64,000 nt of DNA from Candidatus Latescibacterota bacterium (lineage in GTDB: Bacteria; Latescibacterota; UBA2968; UBA8231): assembly GCA_022826515.1 (NCBI GenBank), contig JAJDUT010000112.1, positions 8,801 through 72,800 on the forward strand, read 5' to 3'. This document shows, piece after piece, positions 26,575 to 64,000 of the stretch; positions within the stretch are counted from its first letter, which is position 1, and the number at the start of each line of letters is the position of its first letter. Position numbers and translations under genes: made by a program. The notes below the pieces were generated by a model. It was not told the origin of the DNA and ran no database searches. It was given only the letters and a program-made list of their open reading frames with translations.

Positions 26575-28823
26575 AGTCGATTGTACTTATCCCGCAAGCG
26601 TTGGCGCACGATCTCGGCCAGCGAGTTGATAAAAAAAGTGACCATAAACAGCAGCAAGCCACTGAGGAAGAGTACTCGATAGAGCGTGCCCTGGTGTGGC
26701 GCTTCGGGTAACTCCACCGCGATATTAGCCGAAATGGTGCGCATGCCGTTGAAGATGTTCCAATCCATGATCGGGGTATTGCCCGTGGCCATCAGCACGA
26801 TCATGGTCTCCCCGATGGCGCGGCCGAGGCCGATCATGGCCGCCGAGAAAATGCCCGGCAGGGCCATCGGCAACACCACCTTGATCGCCGTCTGCCACGG
26901 CGTGGCTCCCAAGGCCAGCGAGCCGGCGCGCAAGTGACTGGGCACGCTAGAAAGCGCGTCCTCGCAGATGGTGAAGATCAGCGGAACGACCGCAAAGCCC
27001 ATGGCAAATCCCACTACCAAGCAATTGCGCTGGTCGTAGCCAACGCCCGCGTCTTGCCGCAGCCAGCGCAGGAAGTGCCCGTCAAAAGCCAAGTCTTCAA
27101 AGACCGGCCCCAGCGCGTACGCCAAACAAGCGACCAGCAGAGTCACCGCGCCGAGCAAGTATATCTCCCCCACCCGCGCCACTTGGCGCACCCAAGCCTC
27201 TGGAGCGTATTGCCAGGCCCAAGCCGCAGCTATGACCACGGTTGGTACCGCCGGCAGCAGCAGCAAGGTCCCCAACAAGTGCGATTCGAGCAGTGGGGCC
27301 AGCCACAAGCCAGCTAAGAAGCCCAAGATGACGCTCGGCAACGAGGCCATGACTTCCACGGACGGCTTGACCAAGCCCTGCACGCGCGGCGAGGCAAATT
27401 CGGCCGTGTAAATCGCCGCTAAAACAGCCAATGGCAACGCAAAGAGCAGGGCGTAGAACGTGCCCTTGGCCGTGCCCAAAATCAGCGGCACCAAGCTAAG
27501 TTTCGGCTCAAACTCGTCCGTGCCGCCGGTCGATTGCCACACGTATTCGCGGCTCCCGTAGCCCTCGTACCAGATGGAGCCGAATAGTACGGCCGTGCTG
27601 ATTTCGGGATGGGGATGGTCGAGGGCAAAGCGCCGCAACCTCCCGTCTTGGCCGAGGGCCAAAAATCCGTCGGCCTTGGGCGCGAAAACCAACGCGGCGG
27701 CCGGAGAGTCGCCCGGCAGTTGGAAGACCGTCTGTTCGGAGGTTAGGTGATGTAGGGCTATGGCCCCCTCGGCGTCGGTCGTGAGAAACTGCTTGTCGCG
27801 CGCAGACGCGGCAATGTGGGTAACGGCTGACGCATGGGGAGCAAAGGCGTGGATTTTGCGATACGACCGCTGCCCATCTTCCTCGACCTTAAACCAAGTG
27901 CTGACGTGGCCAGCCGCGTCGCCTACTACCAGCGAAACCTCGCCTAGCGCGTACGCCAGCGCCGAAACCGCGACCTCTGATACGGCAATGTGCCCGACAA
28001 ACGCCGGCGCTTGTTCCACCCCTCCCAGCCGCCACTCGTACACCTGCCCCTGATCCGTTCCTACGAGCAACTGGCGAATGCGACCGTCGAGCAGTACCTG
28101 CGTGGCCTTGCCGACTTCGGCGAGCTCAGACTTCGGCGAGCTCAGTCGAGTCGTCGAGGCGTCGAAATCGGCCGTTAGATCGTACTGTCTTTCTCGGCGC
28201 TCGCCCGGCCCCAATAGGCCCTGCTGCTGCTCGGCTACCATCACCACCAAGCGACCGCTCGCCGTAATCGCCGCCGCGGCCGAGCGGCCATCGTCTCCTT
28301 GCCGAAAGGCCACTTGCACCAGCGACTCACCCGTCGGATCGACTGCGACGAGGCGCTCAACCGCAAACTGCGGCACCACCTGCCGCTGGCCGCTGCTGTA
28401 ATCGAGTTGGAAACGAATCCGCGTCGCTAGCAAATGACCGTCGTCCGTGCCCAGCGCCAAAACGTCGTTTGGCATCCGCTGTGCGGCCGTTACTTCGCGC
28501 CCCGTCAACTCGGCTGGTCGCTCGCGGCGGATGACTTGGCCATCGTCCAACCGCAACAAATCCACCCCTTGGGGGCCGACTGCATAAGCGGTCTGGTAGT
28601 AGGGATCGAGCCCAATGGCGAACGGGCCGACTACTTGGTGTGTTTTTTCTGCTGTTATCTCTGGGGAGCGAAACAGGGGCCAAGCCTCGGCGAGGACGAA
28701 GACGAATATCCCCAAGACAGCGGCGATAATACCGATGCCGCCAACGGAGATACAGCGCCCAGCCAGCCAGTCGAAGATTCGCGCTCGCGGCGTGATCCCG
28801 CGCTTATATGGCTTTTCGCTCAC
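26571..28823 (-). CDS. pstC: Phosphate ABC transporter permease, long form with propeller-like insert
   Basis: A 750-aa PstC. After one membrane helix (IGIIAAVLGIFVFVLAEAW) comes a periplasmic region of about 380 residues. It contains repeats such as VLALGTDDGHLLAT, LLVGTDQGQVYEW, LVVGDAAGHVSTW and FLALGQDGRLRRF that look like beta-propeller blades. The permease core (about 455-745) carries the cytoplasmic-loop sequence LRAGSLALGATPWQ. The start is a GTG at 28823. The insert may sense periplasmic conditions or dock PstS; that is inference. Confidence 0.9.
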   Translation of the reverse strand: MSEKPYKRGITPRARIFDWLAGRCISVGGIGIIAAVLGIFVFVLAEAWPLFRSPEITAEKTHQVVGPFAIGLDPYYQTAYAVGPQGVDLLRLDDGQVIRRERPAELTGREVTAAQRMPNDVLALGTDDGHLLATRIRFQLDYSSGQRQVVPQFAVERLVAVDPTGESLVQVAFRQGDDGRSAAAAITASGRLVVMVAEQQQGLLGPGERRERQYDLTADFDASTTRLSSPKSELAEVGKATQVLLDGRIRQLLVGTDQGQVYEWRLGGVEQAPAFVGHIAVSEVAVSALAYALGEVSLVVGDAAGHVSTWFKVEEDGQRSYRKIHAFAPHASAVTHIAASARDKQFLTTDAEGAIALHHLTSEQTVFQLPGDSPAAALVFAPKADGFLALGQDGRLRRFALDHPHPEISTAVLFGSIWYEGYGSREYVWQSTGGTDEFEPKLSLVPLILGTAKGTFYALLFALPLAVLAAIYTAEFASPRVQGLVKPSVEVMASLPSVILGFLAGLWLAPLLESHLLGTLLLLPAVPTVVIAAAWAWQYAPEAWVRQVARVGEIYLLGAVTLLVACLAYALGPVFEDLAFDGHFLRWLRQDAGVGYDQRNCLVVGFAMGFAVVPLIFTICEDALSSVPSHLRAGSLALGATPWQTAIKVVLPMALPGIFSAAMIGLGRAIGETMIVLMATGNTPIMDWNIFNGMRTISANIAVELPEAPHQGTLYRVLFLSGLLLFMVTFFINSLAEIVRQRLRDKYNRL

Positions 28824-57095: not shown

Positions 57096-58376
57096 ATGCC
57101 GACCAACGCCAAAAAACCGATCATTGCTTGGGCCTTGTACGACTGGGCCAACTCGGCCTTTGCCACCACGGTCATCGCCGCTTTCTTCCCGGTATTTTTT
57201 AAGTCCTACTGGAGCGCCGGCAGCGACGTCACTGAGAGCACCTTCCAACTGGGGCTAGCCAACTCGCTCAGCAGCCTAATCGTCGTGCTGCTAGCCCCCT
57301 TCTTGGGAGCTATTGCCGACCAAGGCGGCATCCGGCGCAAGTTCCTGTTTGCCTTCGCCTTCTTGGGCGTCCTCGCCACGGGCTGCCTCTACATGGTTGC
57401 CCAAGGCGCGTGGGAGCTGGCCGTTGTGGTCTATGTCTTGGCCGCCATCGGCTTCTCCGGCGGCAATACTTTTTACGATGCGCTCATCGTGGAAGTGGTC
57501 GGGCGCGACAAGTCCGACTCGGTCTCGGCGCTCGGATATAGCCTCGGCTATCTGGGCGGCGGCTTGCTGTTTGCGCTCAATGTGGTAATGGTCCTCCACC
57601 CCACGACCTTCGGATTGGCCGACGCCAGCGAGGCCGTGCGCGTGTGCTTTTTGCTAGTCGCCATCTGGTGGGCTGGCTTTTCGCTGCCGCTCTTTTTGTG
57701 GGTCGAGGAATCGCCGCCCGTGCACGCCCGCCGTGGCTGGAGCGCCATCTCGGCCGGCTATCGGCAGCTCATCGCGACCGGCCGCGACATCCGGCAGCTA
57801 CGCACCACCTTTGTCTTTCTCATCGGCTATTGGCTGTACATCGACGGCGTCGATACCATCGTCCGCATGGCCATCGACTACGGCCTGTCCCTCGGCTTTG
57901 ACACCAACGACCTGCTCATCGCCTTGGGCATTACCCAGTTCGTGGGCTTCCCCGCGGCCATTGCCTTTGGCTGGCTCGGCGAGCGGATTGGCACCCGCAA
58001 GGGGATCTTCATCGGCCTAGCCGTCTATATCGCGGCGACGGTCTGGGGCTACTTTTTAGATACAGTCTGGGAATTTTACGCCTTGGCCGTGACCGTCGGC
58101 CTAGTCCAAGGCGGCGTACAAGCCCTGAGCCGCTCGCTCTACTCAAGGCTCATTCCCCGCGACCGCGCGGCCGAGTTTTTCGGCTTTTACAACATGCTGG
58201 GCAAGTTCGCCGCGGTCATCGGCCCAGTACTCGTGGGCTGGATTGGGGTGCTAACCGGCAGCCCGCGCACGGGGATTTTGTCGATCGTCATCCTCTTCGT
58301 CGCCGGCGGAATCTGCCTCTGCTTCGTCGATGAAGAGCGAGGCACGACTGCAGCGCGCGCCATTGAGGGCACTTAG
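57096..58376 (+). CDS. UMF1/Atg22-type MFS transporter
   Basis: A 12-helix permease (426 aa) of the UMF1 group related to vacuolar Atg22. Diagnostic starts are IIAWALYDWANSAFAT and FLGAIADQGGIRRKFLF; later VQALSRSLYSRLIP and EFFGFYNMLGKFA. The substrate in bacteria is unknown; amino-acid or peptide efflux is assumed from the family. The ATG at 57096 has no clear Shine-Dalgarno. Its stop overlaps the convergent peptidase by 4 bases. Confidence 0.9.
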   Translation: MPTNAKKPIIAWALYDWANSAFATTVIAAFFPVFFKSYWSAGSDVTESTFQLGLANSLSSLIVVLLAPFLGAIADQGGIRRKFLFAFAFLGVLATGCLYMVAQGAWELAVVVYVLAAIGFSGGNTFYDALIVEVVGRDKSDSVSALGYSLGYLGGGLLFALNVVMVLHPTTFGLADASEAVRVCFLLVAIWWAGFSLPLFLWVEESPPVHARRGWSAISAGYRQLIATGRDIRQLRTTFVFLIGYWLYIDGVDTIVRMAIDYGLSLGFDTNDLLIALGITQFVGFPAAIAFGWLGERIGTRKGIFIGLAVYIAATVWGYFLDTVWEFYALAVTVGLVQGGVQALSRSLYSRLIPRDRAAEFFGFYNMLGKFAAVIGPVLVGWIGVLTGSPRTGILSIVILFVAGGICLCFVDEERGTTAARAIEGT

Positions 58377-59527
58377 CAAAACGCCTGCGCCGTCAGCGCA
58401 TACACCTTCGCCACCCGCACCAACTCGGCCACTGGTACCTGCTCGTCGGTTGTATGCGCCCCTGTGGCGCAAGGACCGTGGGTTAGAGCCTCAATCCCGG
58501 CAGCCATAAAAACATTGCCATCGTCGATAAAGGGCTTGCCTCCCAAGGGCAGCACTGCCCCGGTCACCTGTTCGTGCGCGGCCTGAAACGCATCCACCAG
58601 CGGACTGCTTTGATCTACCGCAAAGGCGTCGCCGGGCATGTTCCAGTCGGCGAGCCGGATGCGGGTGCCGCTTGCCGCAGCTACGTCGGCGAGCAGGTCC
58701 TCAATTTCGCGCCGCGCCGTCGGCCCCACACCGGCCGTCACCCAGCGGCGAGTCCCCTCGACGCGGCACTGGACCGGCACCTGATTGTAGAGCTGGCCGC
58801 CTTCGAGCCGGCCGATAAACAGCGTGTCGCTGCCGACGTAGGGCGCGGTTCGCTCGCGCAGATGCTCGTTTAGCGCGTTCAGCCCCAACACCACCTCGGC
58901 CCCCGCGGCGATCACGTCCGGTAGGTCGGCTGGCCTTAGCACCTCGTGTACTGGCTCGCCATCGCGCTCGACCTCCACGCTAAACACGGCCATCCCGCGC
59001 CCGGCGACCGGCAGCACGTCGCCCAAGTACTCCGGCAATAGCACTCCGTCGCCGACAAAGCCTTCGCGGATCAAGGCCAAAAGCTGACGGCGGTCGCCCC
59101 AAGGCGCTTCGTGGTGGTCGTGGGCCGTGAGCAAGACCGCCCCCTTGGTCAATGCACCCGCATCCCTCAACGCCCTGAGCGCCTCGACGAAGGCGGCGAT
59201 TCCTCCCTTCATGTCGGACGACCCCGACCCATAGAGCAGGCCGTTCTCCACCTTGGGCGGCACAAAGGGCAAATGCACCGTGTCCAAATGTCCGTCGAAT
59301 TGCAACGCCCGCCCGGGCTGACCGCTGTCGAAGCGAGCGACCACGGCTGGTGCTTGCGGCCAATCGGCTTGGGGCCGCTCCACAGCAAATCCCTCGGCCG
59401 CCAATATGGACGCCAACGCATCAGCCACCGCGCCAGCATCCAGCGTCGGGCTGGGCACTGCAATCAACTTCTTAGCCGTATCCAGTAGGCGTTGCTCATC
59501 GACGGCCTGTAGTATGTTGTCTTCCAT
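58373..59527 (-). CDS. M20-family metallopeptidase/deacylase (ArgE/DapE-like)
   Basis: A 384-aa zinc hydrolase. Metal ligands appear in FDGHLDTVH and GSGSSDMKGG. The catalytic loop that usually ends in EE reads TAHDHHEAPWG, so the general-base glutamate may be replaced. C-terminal ALTHGPCATGAHTTDEQV supplies the last histidine. It could be an amidohydrolase of the acetylornithine-deacetylase type. A purine-rich AGGAGG lies just upstream of the ATG. Confidence 0.87.
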   Translation of the reverse strand: MEDNILQAVDEQRLLDTAKKLIAVPSPTLDAGAVADALASILAAEGFAVERPQADWPQAPAVVARFDSGQPGRALQFDGHLDTVHLPFVPPKVENGLLYGSGSSDMKGGIAAFVEALRALRDAGALTKGAVLLTAHDHHEAPWGDRRQLLALIREGFVGDGVLLPEYLGDVLPVAGRGMAVFSVEVERDGEPVHEVLRPADLPDVIAAGAEVVLGLNALNEHLRERTAPYVGSDTLFIGRLEGGQLYNQVPVQCRVEGTRRWVTAGVGPTARREIEDLLADVAAASGTRIRLADWNMPGDAFAVDQSSPLVDAFQAAHEQVTGAVLPLGGKPFIDDGNVFMAAGIEALTHGPCATGAHTTDEQVPVAELVRVAKVYALTAQAFC

Positions 59528-59560
59528 CCCAATAGACCTCCTAAATCGCGTAAAAAGTTA

Positions 59561-59617
59561 TCCGCAGATGGACGCAGAATAGTACGCACAAAAACTTGAA
59601 TCTGCGCTATCTGCGGA
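59561..59617. repeat. REP-like inverted repeat with CGCAGAT motifs
   Basis: Left arm 59561-59580 and right arm 59599-59617 are imperfect inverted copies, each holding two CGCAGA-type units, with an 18-base loop. From memory, CGCAGAT-type palindromes recur in intergenic regions of many environmental genomes. It lies between the lipoprotein stop and the M20 start, both on the minus strand. Confidence 0.6.
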
Positions 59618-59634
59618 CAATCGACATGTTAAGC

Positions 59635-59835
59635 TCACCCGGTCGTATCCGCATCGGCCGCGCCACGCGGACAGAGCCACCCGCGCTCCCAGGCCGGGCC
59701 ACTACAATTTTCCTCAAGCGCTTCCAGCCGCTCTTCTTCGGTTCGCTTCCACGGATCCTTGGGCAGATCGGCCGGCCCTTGGGGATCGCTTAGTCCGCAA
59801 CCGACCAATGCCATGCAGAGCATCCACTTTCTCGC
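59635..59835 (-). CDS. Small predicted lipoprotein
   Basis: A 66-aa protein with a short hydrophobic leader and lipobox-like MALVGC (cleavage before Cys 14). It continues GLSDPQGPADLPKDPWKRTEE with a further Cys pair. GGAGG lies 5 bases before the ATG at 59835, which fixes the start inside a longer open frame to 59901. Such small lipoproteins are often missed. Function unknown; it is divergent from the glycoside-hydrolase-like gene. Confidence 0.6.
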   Translation of the reverse strand, partial: ARKWMLCMALVGCGLSDPQGPADLPKDPWKRTEEERLEALEENCSGPAWERGWLCPRGAADADTTG

Positions 59836-59905
59836 CATCTTAACCTCCGTTGCCCGCCGCTGACAATCTCCGTACTTTGGCCTCAATTCGCAAAGGAGCA
59901 AACTT

Positions 59906-61456
59906 ATGTCCCGCCCCCCTGACTACGGCATCATCTACAACTGGGACGGTGCGCCGCACGGCTACTCGCCCGTTCCCCAGTCCATGGACGCCTTTCTCGA
60001 CAAGACGTACGCCCCGCTCGAACACACCCAAGTCGGTGCCTTATTTTGGTGCGTGGGCGAACACGCCACCCGCTGGCCAAGCGACTCGCTCGAACTCGTC
60101 GGCGATCTCCACCAGCGCCGCTACGAAAACGCCGCTAGCTATACGCACACCGAAAACATTCGCCGCATGTTGGAACGAGGCGAAGATCCCCAACAGGCCG
60201 TCATCGACCGCGGCCACCAACTCGACCTGCACGTGTATGCCTCGCTGCGCATGAACGACAATCACTTCAACGGCGCTCAGCCAAGCGACCTCCAGACCCT
60301 GCACCACGTCGAACTGACCAAACTGCGCAAAGACCACCCCGAATGGCTCCTCGGCGAGGATACCGAGGAGTGGTTTGCCCTGTCGTGGAATATGGCCATC
60401 CCCCAAGTGCGCGAAAATCGCTTCCAGCACTTGCGCGAAGTTTGCCAAAACTACCCCTGGGACGGCGTCGAACTCGACTGGCAACGCCACCCCTTCCACT
60501 TCCCCGCCGACTATGCCTATCGCCTGCGCTACATCTTCACCGACTTCATGCGGGCGGCGCGGCAACTGACCGACGAACTGGCCCAACAGCGTGGCCGACC
60601 CTTCTACCTAGCAGCCCGCGTCGCCGGCTCTATCGAGGGCTGTCACCGCATTGGCTACGATGTGGAAACCTGGGCAAAAGAAAACCTCGTCGATATCCTG
60701 ATCCCAGCCGGTGCCGCCGCTACCGATCCAGCCATTGAAGTCAGTGCCTTCCGCGCCCTCTGCGCCGACCGCGACATCGCCCTCTACCCAGGTTTCGACG
60801 GCGGCGTCCCCGGCCCGGCTGCCGGTCCCGAAGGCGAAACGGCCCGCCACAACATGCGCACCAAAGCCACGGCCATGCAGTATCACGGCCAAGGCGCGAC
60901 CGGTATATACGCGTTCAACTGGCACGCCGACCGCGATTCAAGGCGCGAGTTGCTAACCCAAGTCGGCGCGGTTCAGACCCTGTGCCGTCAAAACAAACTC
61001 TACAATGTGACCCACCGCTTTCGCCAGCACACCGGGGAGTGGCGCGGCGCGTACCAGCACGACCGGCTGCGCGGCACCCTACCCGTCCCCCTCTATCCAA
61101 CCATGCGGGAAACCGGCCCGCACTTCGACCTCGACCTCGCCGACGACTTGAGCGCAGACCCACCGACAAGCATTACTCTGCGTCTGCGTCTGCAAGATTG
61201 GGTCGCTGGCGACGAGGTTCGCTGCTGCTGGGATGGCGAAGTCTTGGCCGACCCGGATATCAGCTATTGCCACGGCGGCGACCCTCAACCTATCTCCGAT
61301 GTCAGCGCCGCCGCTTGGCACAGCTTCGCGCTCACAGCCGCCCAAGCCGCCCGCGGCCGCCATCGCATAGAACTCGTTCTCTTGCAACGCCATCCCCAAC
61401 TTGCTTGCGACTTGGTTCTAACCGACGTCGAGGTGGTCATCCTGTACAAGGATTGA
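59906..61456 (+). CDS. Glycoside-hydrolase-like TIM-barrel protein, unknown
   Basis: A 516-aa protein without signal peptide. The region HQLDLHVYASLRMNDNHFNG, then YPWDGVELDWQRHPFHFP, resembles strands of a (beta/alpha)8 hydrolase, with the D/E of GVELDWQRH as candidate catalytic or ligand residues. GATGIYAFNWHADRDSR is near the barrel end, and a beta-rich C-terminal domain of about 130 residues follows. The family is not identified; relatives of GH10-like or DUF4985 proteins are possible. AAAGGAG lies upstream of the ATG. Confidence 0.65.
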   Translation: MSRPPDYGIIYNWDGAPHGYSPVPQSMDAFLDKTYAPLEHTQVGALFWCVGEHATRWPSDSLELVGDLHQRRYENAASYTHTENIRRMLERGEDPQQAVIDRGHQLDLHVYASLRMNDNHFNGAQPSDLQTLHHVELTKLRKDHPEWLLGEDTEEWFALSWNMAIPQVRENRFQHLREVCQNYPWDGVELDWQRHPFHFPADYAYRLRYIFTDFMRAARQLTDELAQQRGRPFYLAARVAGSIEGCHRIGYDVETWAKENLVDILIPAGAAATDPAIEVSAFRALCADRDIALYPGFDGGVPGPAAGPEGETARHNMRTKATAMQYHGQGATGIYAFNWHADRDSRRELLTQVGAVQTLCRQNKLYNVTHRFRQHTGEWRGAYQHDRLRGTLPVPLYPTMRETGPHFDLDLADDLSADPPTSITLRLRLQDWVAGDEVRCCWDGEVLADPDISYCHGGDPQPISDVSAAAWHSFALTAAQAARGRHRIELVLLQRHPQLACDLVLTDVEVVILYKD

Positions 61457-61549
61457 CGACGCGAGCGGAAGTCGCTGTACCTTGTGAAAGTTCGGTCTAT
61501 CTATTGTATTACATAAAGAAGCGATTATAAGAGTAGAAAGAGGCATTTC

Positions 61550-62062
61550 ATGGCTAATCAAAAGCATATCGAATGGCTTCTCAAAGGCGTCAATGCTTGG
61601 AACGAGAGGCGCGGGCGAGAAGATTTTCAGCCGGACTTTGAAGGAGCAGATATTTCCGGCGAGTTCAAGAAAATGGGAGCGTTGGGCAATGATGGACGAG
61701 CTTATTTACGGGGAATCAATCTCAGTGGTGCCGACCTCAGCAGAGCCGACCTCAGCAGAGCCGATCTCAACGGAGCCGACTTCAGCGGAGCCGACCTTAC
61801 CGAGGCCGAGCTTGATTCCGCCAAACTGAACGGGGCCGATCTGTCCGGTGCCAAACTGTGCAAAGCCCATCTCACCGAAGCTCACCTCATTGAAGCCCGT
61901 CTCATTAAAGCCGACCTTACCGAGGCCGAACTCGACCGCGCCAACCTTTACAAAGCGAATCTCACTGGGGCAACTCTAATCAACGCTAGCTTTCGCAAGG
62001 CCAATCTCTCTTGGGCCAATCTATCGTATTCGCAGGTGTGGAAAGCGAAGCTGTATGGATGA
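61550..62062 (+). CDS. Pentapeptide-repeat protein
   Basis: A 170-aa protein whose residues from about 60 to the end are A(D/N)LxX pentapeptides (SGADLSRADL, NGADFSGADL, TEAELDSAKL and so on), about 20 in all, forming a right-handed quadrilateral beta-helix. The first 55 residues are non-repetitive. It overlaps the FRG-domain gene by 8 bases, so the two proteins probably work together. Pentapeptide proteins of this kind can mimic DNA or act as effectors; the role here is unknown. Confidence 0.92.
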   Translation: MANQKHIEWLLKGVNAWNERRGREDFQPDFEGADISGEFKKMGALGNDGRAYLRGINLSGADLSRADLSRADLNGADFSGADLTEAELDSAKLNGADLSGAKLCKAHLTEAHLIEARLIKADLTEAELDRANLYKANLTGATLINASFRKANLSWANLSYSQVWKAKLYG

Positions 62063-62975
62063 AGCACAGAATGTCGGAACAGATCAAAGTAACAGCGACG
62101 AAAAAATCAAAAGCATTGAGTGCTTGCTAAAAGAGTGCCGCGACCTCAAAAAACGCCACGCTGATAATGTCCAATTCTATTTCCGAGGAGAAAGCTGCGA
62201 TTCGTGGGAGCTACGTCCCTCCGTAATGCGGCGTTCCAGCCTTCGGGAAAAGGAAAGCGAGATGCTAAACGAACTCATGTCGCGTCAGCCAGAGGCGTTC
62301 AGTGGGCTTACATCTGCGTTCTCACAGTGGGTACTCGCGCAGCATTACGGGCTTAAAACGAGGCTTCTCGATATAACTCGTAACCCGTTAGTTGCCCTGT
62401 TCAATGCCTGCGAAGAGGACGGTGAAAAGGACGGTCGCCTGCATGTCTTCGCAGTGCCGAGCGACTTGATCAAATCGTTCAACAGCGATACGGTCAGTAT
62501 CATCGCCAATTTCGCTAAACTCCGTCATGCCGAGCAGAACTTGCTATTGCTATTGGGCAAAACGCCGGAAGACACCGATGAAGACGAAAACTTGGACCTT
62601 GCAGACGAACACCCCGAAGTCATGGGCCGCCTTTATCATTTTATCGGGCAAGAGAAACCGCATTTTGAGGAACAAATCAACCCCATAGACCTGTTCCGCG
62701 TCTTCGTCATCGAGCCGCAGCAGTCGTTTGAGCGCATTCGAGCACAGTCTGGGGCCTTTCTGATCTCGGTGTTTCACGAGCGGTTCGAGCGCAGCCAAAT
62801 CCTGCAATTGGATGCCGATATTCCAGTTTACGACCATTGTATGTTGACGGTGTCAGGCGCGAACAAGCAATATCTCATGAACGATCTGCGCCTGCTGAAC
62901 ATCACTCGCGAGAGCCTTTTTCCCGGTCTCGACGAAGCGGCCAAGGCGATTACGCAACGCTATTCCGCTGAGTGA
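62055..62975 (+). CDS. FRG-domain protein
   Basis: A 306-aa soluble protein with the FRG domain: VQFYFRGESCDSWELRPSVM near residue 38, and QHYGLKTRLLDITRNPLVALFNAC near 95, plus a C-terminal DIPVYDHCML segment. FRG proteins are of uncertain biochemistry and often lie in accessory or defence contexts. It shares an 8-base overlap with the pentapeptide gene. Base composition is near 50% GC, lower than the core genes, suggesting transfer. Confidence 0.88.
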   Translation: MDEAQNVGTDQSNSDEKIKSIECLLKECRDLKKRHADNVQFYFRGESCDSWELRPSVMRRSSLREKESEMLNELMSRQPEAFSGLTSAFSQWVLAQHYGLKTRLLDITRNPLVALFNACEEDGEKDGRLHVFAVPSDLIKSFNSDTVSIIANFAKLRHAEQNLLLLLGKTPEDTDEDENLDLADEHPEVMGRLYHFIGQEKPHFEEQINPIDLFRVFVIEPQQSFERIRAQSGAFLISVFHERFERSQILQLDADIPVYDHCMLTVSGANKQYLMNDLRLLNITRESLFPGLDEAAKAITQRYSAE

Positions 62976-63075
62976 ATTATGGTTGAATCGTAACAAGCCT
63001 TACGGAGAAACAATGTAAACGGATTCGATATCACTTTTCCGAAGGACGCTTCCGACCAATTGCAGAGGAGCCACC

Positions 63076-63267
63076 ATGCCAGTATCGCGCACGAAAGTAG
63101 CTATTCCCGGCAAGCGTCAGGTTCGTATAACCTTGCCAAATCCCCGCTCGGAAAAGGTGCGAAGGCGGGTAGCAAACTCGGTCGCCCGCTTAAACCAATC
63201 CCAGGAAGCCGACGCGCTCCGGTGGGTCGAATCCGTGTCTGAATTTGACGAGCGTGAGACGCGGTGA
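63076..63267 (+). CDS. Small basic protein, unknown
   Basis: A 63-aa reading frame starting MPVSRTKVAIPGKRQVRITL. GAGGAG (63065-63070) lies 5 bases before the ATG, a strong translation signal. It has no homology I recognise; the basic N-terminal beta-like start followed by a helical RVANSVARLNQSQEADALRW is reminiscent of small DNA-binding antitoxins, but that is a guess. It is between the FRG gene and the viperin remnant. Confidence 0.4.
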   Translation: MPVSRTKVAIPGKRQVRITLPNPRSEKVRRRVANSVARLNQSQEADALRWVESVSEFDERETR

Positions 63268-63401
63268 CATCGTAACGGTGGCAGGCGTAGGCGATTTTAG
63301 GAAACCGGCTATAACCACCCCTCCCGCGCGCTACTAATCCTTCGTGTTCCCTCGTTTTATTCGTAGTACAATGTTTAACTCCTTCGATGCCAATGAAGCG
63401 A

Positions 63402-63859
63402 CTACCAGTCATACTGTCCTCCTCTCTTAATAAACAGTTTAGTGCTGATCGATATATCTTTCAAGGCTTCTTCTACTCCAACTTTCAGAATGGGCCTACT
63501 GTAGGTATGGGTGCCAAGGTCGTTATCAAAAAAGCGTCCCGCTGGATCGACCATAATGTAACTCGGAGTCATCAATTCATTGCTCTCAGGCACTACGATA
63601 ATTTCATCATTTTCGACAATGCGATTGCGTTGGACATATGCTTCAAACTGATCTTTCGTTATCTCTAAATCAGCGATATACTCGTCGTTTTGTCCCTTGA
63701 CGGGGAGAACTTGCAGCATCTTCCATCGTTCCGGTTTTGCCAAACCTATAAAACTGGTAAAATCCTCTTTCCATGTTTCAGAAGTTACGACAGTGTTGAT
63801 CCTCAAGCGTATCCCTTGTTGCTTTATCGCATCAATTTTTTGTAGATATTCTTTTTCAG
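63402..63859 (-). pseudogene. C-terminal part of a prokaryotic viperin, truncated
   Basis: The reading frame ends with the viperin C-terminus: ERWKMLQVLPVKGQN, VPESNELMTPSYIMVDP, then ILKVGVEEALKDI and FIKRGGQYDW, matching the order LxPExW-like, VPESN, VGVEEA and KRGGxY of viperins. Viperins are radical-SAM enzymes that make chain-terminating ddh-nucleotides against phages and viruses. The CxxxCxxC cluster motif is missing: upstream, in the same frame, an ISAs1-like transposase ends (stop at 63875-63873) and the viperin sequence resumes at AEKEYLQKID. The 5' half must be on the far side of the element or lost. Confidence 0.85.
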
Positions 63860-64000
63860 CAGGGCAATCGCATTATAAGTGAGCTTTTGCCAACAGGTTA
63901 GCCAGATATTTGTTATCCCATCCGGCCTTGAGCCGCTTGGTTTGGATGCCGGCTTTGGTTGTTTTGTCTTGCTGGAGTAGATTAAGCGCGATGTGGCGTA
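63860..64000 (-). mobile_element. 3' end of an ISAs1-like insertion sequence
   Basis: Reading leftwards from the edge gives [17 protein letters not shown], then [18 protein letters not shown] and a TAA at 63875-63873. This is the C-terminal pattern of ISAs1-family transposases ([13 protein letters not shown]). The element's right end is probably near 63860, where CAGGGCAATCGCAT could be the terminal inverted repeat. It abuts the viperin remnant and the rest lies outside the window. Confidence 0.7.

Follow-up and report, generated by a model that had tools for sequence, protein, structure and literature searches.

The analyses presented here indicate that the right end of the window (the whole 64,000-nucleotide stretch of Candidatus Latescibacterota DNA analysed) very probably carries the dead remnant of a horizontally acquired prokaryotic viperin–kinase defence module. 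In an intact module of this family the kinase supplies nucleotides and viperin makes chain-terminating ddh-nucleotides, which stop phage RNA synthesis. Here the C-terminal half of the viperin gene abuts an ISAs1-family insertion sequence (IS) on one side, and on the other it is followed by what are probably the first codons of the partner kinase gene.

The viperin remnant lies on the minus strand at 63402–63859 and corresponds to residues 146–297 of an intact homologue of 297 residues, its stop codon being kept and its original start lost. Its translation reads AEKEYLQKIDAIKQQG...FIKRGGQYDW followed by the stop, and the first codon takes in base 63860. The viperin C-terminus named in the initial annotation was recognized by NF038283 of NCBIfam (E=2.9e-43, 148.1 bits), by TIGR04278 (9.6e-23) and by the PADLOC profiles, of which pVip-kinase scored best (2.1e-49) and pVip followed (3.7e-43 and 8.2e-40), while the best match among solved viperin-like enzymes was 7n7h (E=1.3e-21). 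This clear similarity extends over the C-terminal half only: the remnant aligns to positions 138–280 of the 281-position pVip profile NF038283 and differs from pVip in having neither the N-terminal radical-SAM half nor the CxxxCxxC motif, and in scoring below the curated whole-protein cut-off of 180 bits, as is expected for half a protein. A Pfam scan of the remnant returned no family, which fits the position of the Radical_SAM match in the intact viperin of genome G031 (locus L001; residues 24–177 of 297), mostly in the missing half. The radical-SAM cluster motif, which reads CNMRCKFC in L001 and in the intact viperin of G028 (L002), is absent up to the IS junction, and residues 1–145 of 297 are absent up to the end of the window, over which extent the claimed loss of the radical-SAM half holds.

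Constraint on the remnant was assessed with an alignment of 125 homologues of 265–340 residues (121 database proteins with L002, L003, L008 and L010), beside which the remnant and four truncated proteins were aligned, shorter and longer proteins being excluded from the 125. In this alignment the remnant begins at residue 146 of the 297-residue L001 viperin. At a threshold of at least 96 % of the 125 homologues, 109 columns are conserved; 54 of these, including the radical-SAM cysteines, precede the remnant and belong to the missing part, and 55 fall inside the remnant. The alignment to known viperins that the initial annotation had proposed thus finds the conserved residue kept at 54 of 55 columns, the one departure being R for K in LKINTVV; of the 125 homologues themselves, 78 show no departure, 37 show one and 10 show two or more. 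The remnant contains no internal stops, as had been claimed. By the Nei–Gojobori method dN/dS was 0.15 between the remnant and L002 and 0.18 between L001 and L002, with high dS, and 0.07 between the remnant and L001, but there dS was 2.5 and hence saturated. Relaxed constraint is therefore undetectable in the remnant, suggesting a break that is young compared with these divergences; the recency proposed earlier is consistent with both the stop-free frame and the single departure in 55 conserved columns, and the break may well be recent. The nearest relative fetched (P0122, 203 residues) is 91 % identical, and the nearest full-length relatives (P0109, P0089, P0086, P0097, P0074 and P0098, of 289 residues) are 81–87 % identical.

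The same observations would also be expected if the remnant were still expressed as a C-terminal protein of 105–134 residues, from an internal start or by read-through from the transposase frame, and kept a residual role such as nucleotide binding. The remnant is stop-free and in the transposase frame, nearly all its conserved columns are retained, its dN/dS is unraised, and there are open frames of 134 and 105 residues (P0127, called in the protein database). However, a recent break explains the open frame equally well, every radical-SAM cysteine is missing, the kinase is gone, and the sole conserved-column departure replaces the lysine of LKINTVV, so that we give an expressed, functional fragment very little credence. 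With the frame still open, some protein may nevertheless be made. Taking the locus as a dead module remnant, we expect that any product would be catalytically inactive.

The end of the insertion sequence occupies 63860–64000 (minus strand), and its terminal repeat, CAGGGCAATCGCATTATAAG, starts at 63860, directly after the last base of the remnant at 63859. The last 41 transposase codons lie at 63876–63998 on the same strand, with their stop at 63873–63875; transposase and viperin share one frame, with this single TAA between them. Searched alone, the 41-residue transposase piece matched no transposase family and gave one sub-cut-off Pfam match to an unrelated domain, and the assignment to the ISAs1 family rests on a full copy in genome G005 and on plasmid annotations. 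DNA matches to the IS end were found in two of 100 genomes (G005 and G014). The complete G005 copy (L004) is about 1,266 bp long, with a slightly imperfect left end, and encodes a DDE transposase of 384 residues with PF13808 and PF01609, which agrees with the window's 41 C-terminal residues at 38 (compared by eye). Within a plasmid database 16 records partially match the IS end, none over 80 % of the query, and all five of the matches listed are annotated as ISAs1. The ISAs1-like junction partner of the initial annotation is thereby substantiated. ISAs1-family elements make target duplications of 8–10 bp.

Two of the three G005 DNA matches start at 63860 and the third 3 bases later, and the weak G014 match starts 2 bases later. 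The 20-base IS end occurs once in the window, at 63860, even with four mismatches allowed; its first 11 bases, with one mismatch, also occur at 26859, far from the locus. Considering these match starts, the plasmid annotations, the transposase agreement and the unique 20-base end, we conclude that the junction marks a genuine end of the IS, not a random breakpoint. The window shares with ISAs1-family elements the terminal repeat, the transposase C-terminus and a G005 relative at 93 % identity over 138 bases, and differs in showing one end only, exactly 141 bp, with the opposite end past the window edge.

This length bears on whether an assembler may have joined the end of a viperin contig to an IS contig, in a cell that has an intact viperin. 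Such elements occur in repeat copies (two in G005), and MEGAHIT uses by default a largest word of 141, so that a contig carrying 141 bp of IS may simply end in the repeat. Yet where a contig extends by a full word into a repeat, reads support its junction, and with an intact allele present at similar depth the assembly should have branched at 63859, not 141 bases later. We therefore hold an artefact to be highly unlikely and treat the junction of the broken module as genuine.

The partner kinase gene is represented by a probable start of about 12 codons (MTGSRFIGIEGV) at 63377–63412 on the minus strand, overlapping the viperin stop, with the P-loop and everything after it missing. In G031 a complete thymidylate-kinase-like gene of 201 residues (PF02223, 1.8e-17; PADLOC PDC-M51B, 6.5e-27; VakA, 1.5e-13) begins in overlap with the viperin stop, and in G028 an intact viperin is followed by a kinase split into two shorter frames. 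The G028 split (L002:1003–1544) involves 4-base differences from L001 and may be due to decay or to sequencing error. The window keeps the viperin–kinase overlap, MTGSRFIGIEGV against MTGKFVVIEGLDATGKST, and diverges before the P-loop. A 41-base DNA match to L002 at the kinase start has E=0.005 but spans the viperin end too, and when the residues that follow MTG were scored in a control, 10 of 19,996 random 33-mers from both strands of the window reached as high a score. On this evidence we regard the kinase start as probable, and the remainder of the gene appears clearly absent from this place; an ORF of 103 residues at the kinase position had no Pfam match, and about 12 codons are all that the window holds of an adjacent CMPK2/thymidylate-kinase-like gene. 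Compared with known viperin–kinase pairs and fusions (pVip-kinase PDLC02905, VakA PDLC02911 and PDC-M51B), the locus is alike in that the fusion profile is the remnant's best PADLOC match and in that the end of viperin and the start of the kinase overlap, as they do in G031 and G028, and unlike the fusions in that the kinase is a separate, overlapping gene, cut short. According to one review, bacterial viperin blocks phage infection through modified nucleotides that are RNA chain terminators, and 15 % of bacterial viperin genes adjoin CMPK2-like kinase genes (PMC11249213); another paper gives ddhCTP, ddhUTP and ddhGTP as possible products of bacterial viperins (PMC10732462).

The surroundings of the module remnant were compared with sister sites. 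Host genes at 58373–61456 are 89–94 % identical to those of G001, G002, G005, G008 and G009. In G005, G003, G009 and G011, of the same genus as G001, the glycosidase-like gene (59906–61456 in the window) or its end is closely followed by DNA like that at 63034–63306 (88–91 % identity). In the window this DNA holds a small ORF without a family match, placed by position as the antitoxin of a toxin–antitoxin pair (63076–63267, plus strand), and the first 20 or so codons of a MazF/PemK-like toxin gene (63245–63306, plus strand), whose start codon was set by analogy with the G005 ORF (PF02452, 7.5e-24). The MazF-like gene extends past the window's breakpoint in all four of these genomes, and the G009 match to G005 ends near the end of that gene; in the window the gene stops after about 20 codons at 63306/63307, where the viperin block starts. 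Some 70 bp of filler (63307–63376) separate the cut gene from the kinase start; this filler has no Rfam match at gathering score (and one chance-level match elsewhere), and a query of 63300–63412 found nothing better than E=0.19 in 47 genomes. In G001, the nearest genome searched, 63300–64000 had no match at E≤0.001.

Between the host genes and the toxin–antitoxin pair the window carries a further insertion (approximately 61523–63033, plus strand), which is absent at the same place in G005, G003, G009 and G011. It comprises a pentapeptide-repeat gene (61550–62062, plus strand) and an FRG-domain gene (62055–62975, plus strand; PADLOC PDC-S15, 6.3e-79; PF08867, 1.1e-18), and the match of the latter to PDC-S15 models upholds the earlier reading of this neighbourhood as a defence island. 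DNA matches to the FRG gene occur in another genus (G030, G034, G032 and G040, with further shorter matches), and 61460–63420 has at least a partial match in 13 of 50 genomes. Aligned to G005, G001 and G002 prove to be without the toxin–antitoxin pair; some 1.7 kb of different DNA occupies the place in G008. The G+C content is 0.63 in the host genes (58373–61456), 0.51 in the pentapeptide and FRG genes and 0.41 in the viperin remnant, against 0.60 for the whole window; it is also low in the intact viperins (0.47 in L001, 0.49 in L002). Together, the sister-site comparison and G+C content speak for a hotspot at which defence-type genes have been acquired, and for a foreign origin of the viperin. 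A caspase-domain gene (Peptidase_C14, PF00656) follows in G005, bordering the variable spot (L033:900–2957), and G008 has a similar ORF of 693 residues at that spot.

We suggest that the viperin–kinase module was acquired horizontally, into a variable locus of defence type where the block begins within the MazF-like gene of the host, and that an ISAs1 element then landed in the viperin coding region, after codon 145 or thereabouts of 297, which would have separated the radical-SAM half with its CxxxCxxC motif from the C-terminal half. The kinase side may have been lost by a separate deletion, or may never have been inserted whole. The initial annotation had described a viperin acquired and then interrupted by an IS, of which the viperin and the IS junction stand; plain insertion of an IS is insufficient for the whole arrangement, since it accounts neither for the kinase cut after about 12 codons nor for the start of the block within the MazF-like gene. 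The same junction at the viperin break would also be expected from rearrangement between IS copies or from movement of a scrap of DNA.

The last of these deserves some weight. The IS may have brought a viperin scrap of about 550 bp with it into the MazF-like gene, as a composite or rearranged ISAs1 unit, in which case viperin was never whole here and the MazF-like gene resumes beyond the IS. The scrap is truncated at each end and lies within the MazF-like gene, and among the best 120 of 222 matches no N-terminal viperin half fell on the 72,800-base contig. The window's fragment of 105 residues is carried by two contigs, the longest being that of 72,800 bases. Further, G005 has two ISAs1-family copies (G005:C1:975439–979353; L004/L006), 80 % and 93 % identical to the window's IS end, that enclose 1,389 bp and are bordered on the outside by an exact direct repeat of 10 bp, ATAGGACTGC. 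They look like a composite transposon; such elements seem able to move intervening DNA. An ORF of 391 residues lies between the two copies (L004:238–1413). On the other hand, the left boundary of the viperin block at 63307 has no ISAs1 end, the 20-base end having no second copy in the window even at four mismatches, and the filler intervenes. We consider carriage of a scrap a possible but less probable origin, and retain in situ decay of an acquired module as the preferred reading.

The remnant as query found matches in three of 100 genomes, at 72 % in G031 and G028 and at 46 % in G092; an intact viperin as query found G031 and G028 among 47 genomes of the class, at E below 1e-160, and those two alone came up among 64 genomes of the phylum (E≤1e-40) when the query was a viperin from the subgroup to which the remnant belongs. 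A raw tally of 46 of 47 genomes was rejected, the others matching at E of 7e-13 or weaker with 23–34 % identity, and looking like other radical-SAM proteins. A scan of named genomes gave three loci, in Dehalococcoidia, SAR202 and Sphaerotilus MAGs. In the SAR202 record (L009:763–1437) the frame with the viperin C-terminal part has an unlike N-terminus, as after a frameshift. Some related viperins are labelled Candidatus Poribacteria and another Gemmatimonadetes. Scanning viral contigs with the remnant gave 48 pattern stretches, none confirmed as a relative at the sensitivity of the scan. In the literature, searches returned no paper joining Poribacteria and viperin, at most single mentions of sponge and symbionts for sponge symbionts with viperin and defence systems, only Clostridium CRISPR systems for defence islands with insertion sequences (a narrower search returning nothing), and no paper naming ISAs1 among the matches listed.

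Truncated proteins, at the N- or C-terminus, are present in the window's viperin subgroup (P0122, P0198, P0237 and P0150), and may reflect decay, contig ends or draft errors. Considering these together with the broken G028 kinase beside an intact viperin, we raise, as a doubtful proposal, that viperin undergoes recurrent gain and loss in this lineage. If the truncations are real, and not errors of assembly or gene calling, the module may carry a cost and may be silenced again and again by ISAs1 elements at a shared defence hotspot.

Finally, our knowledge of viperin itself is unchanged by this locus, which adds one more case of a kind of event already known. Its interest is as a snapshot of turnover at one defence-type hotspot, where a toxin–antitoxin pair, a pentapeptide and FRG pair and a since-broken viperin–kinase module are found together, and where sister sites without the insertions reveal which parts arrived.
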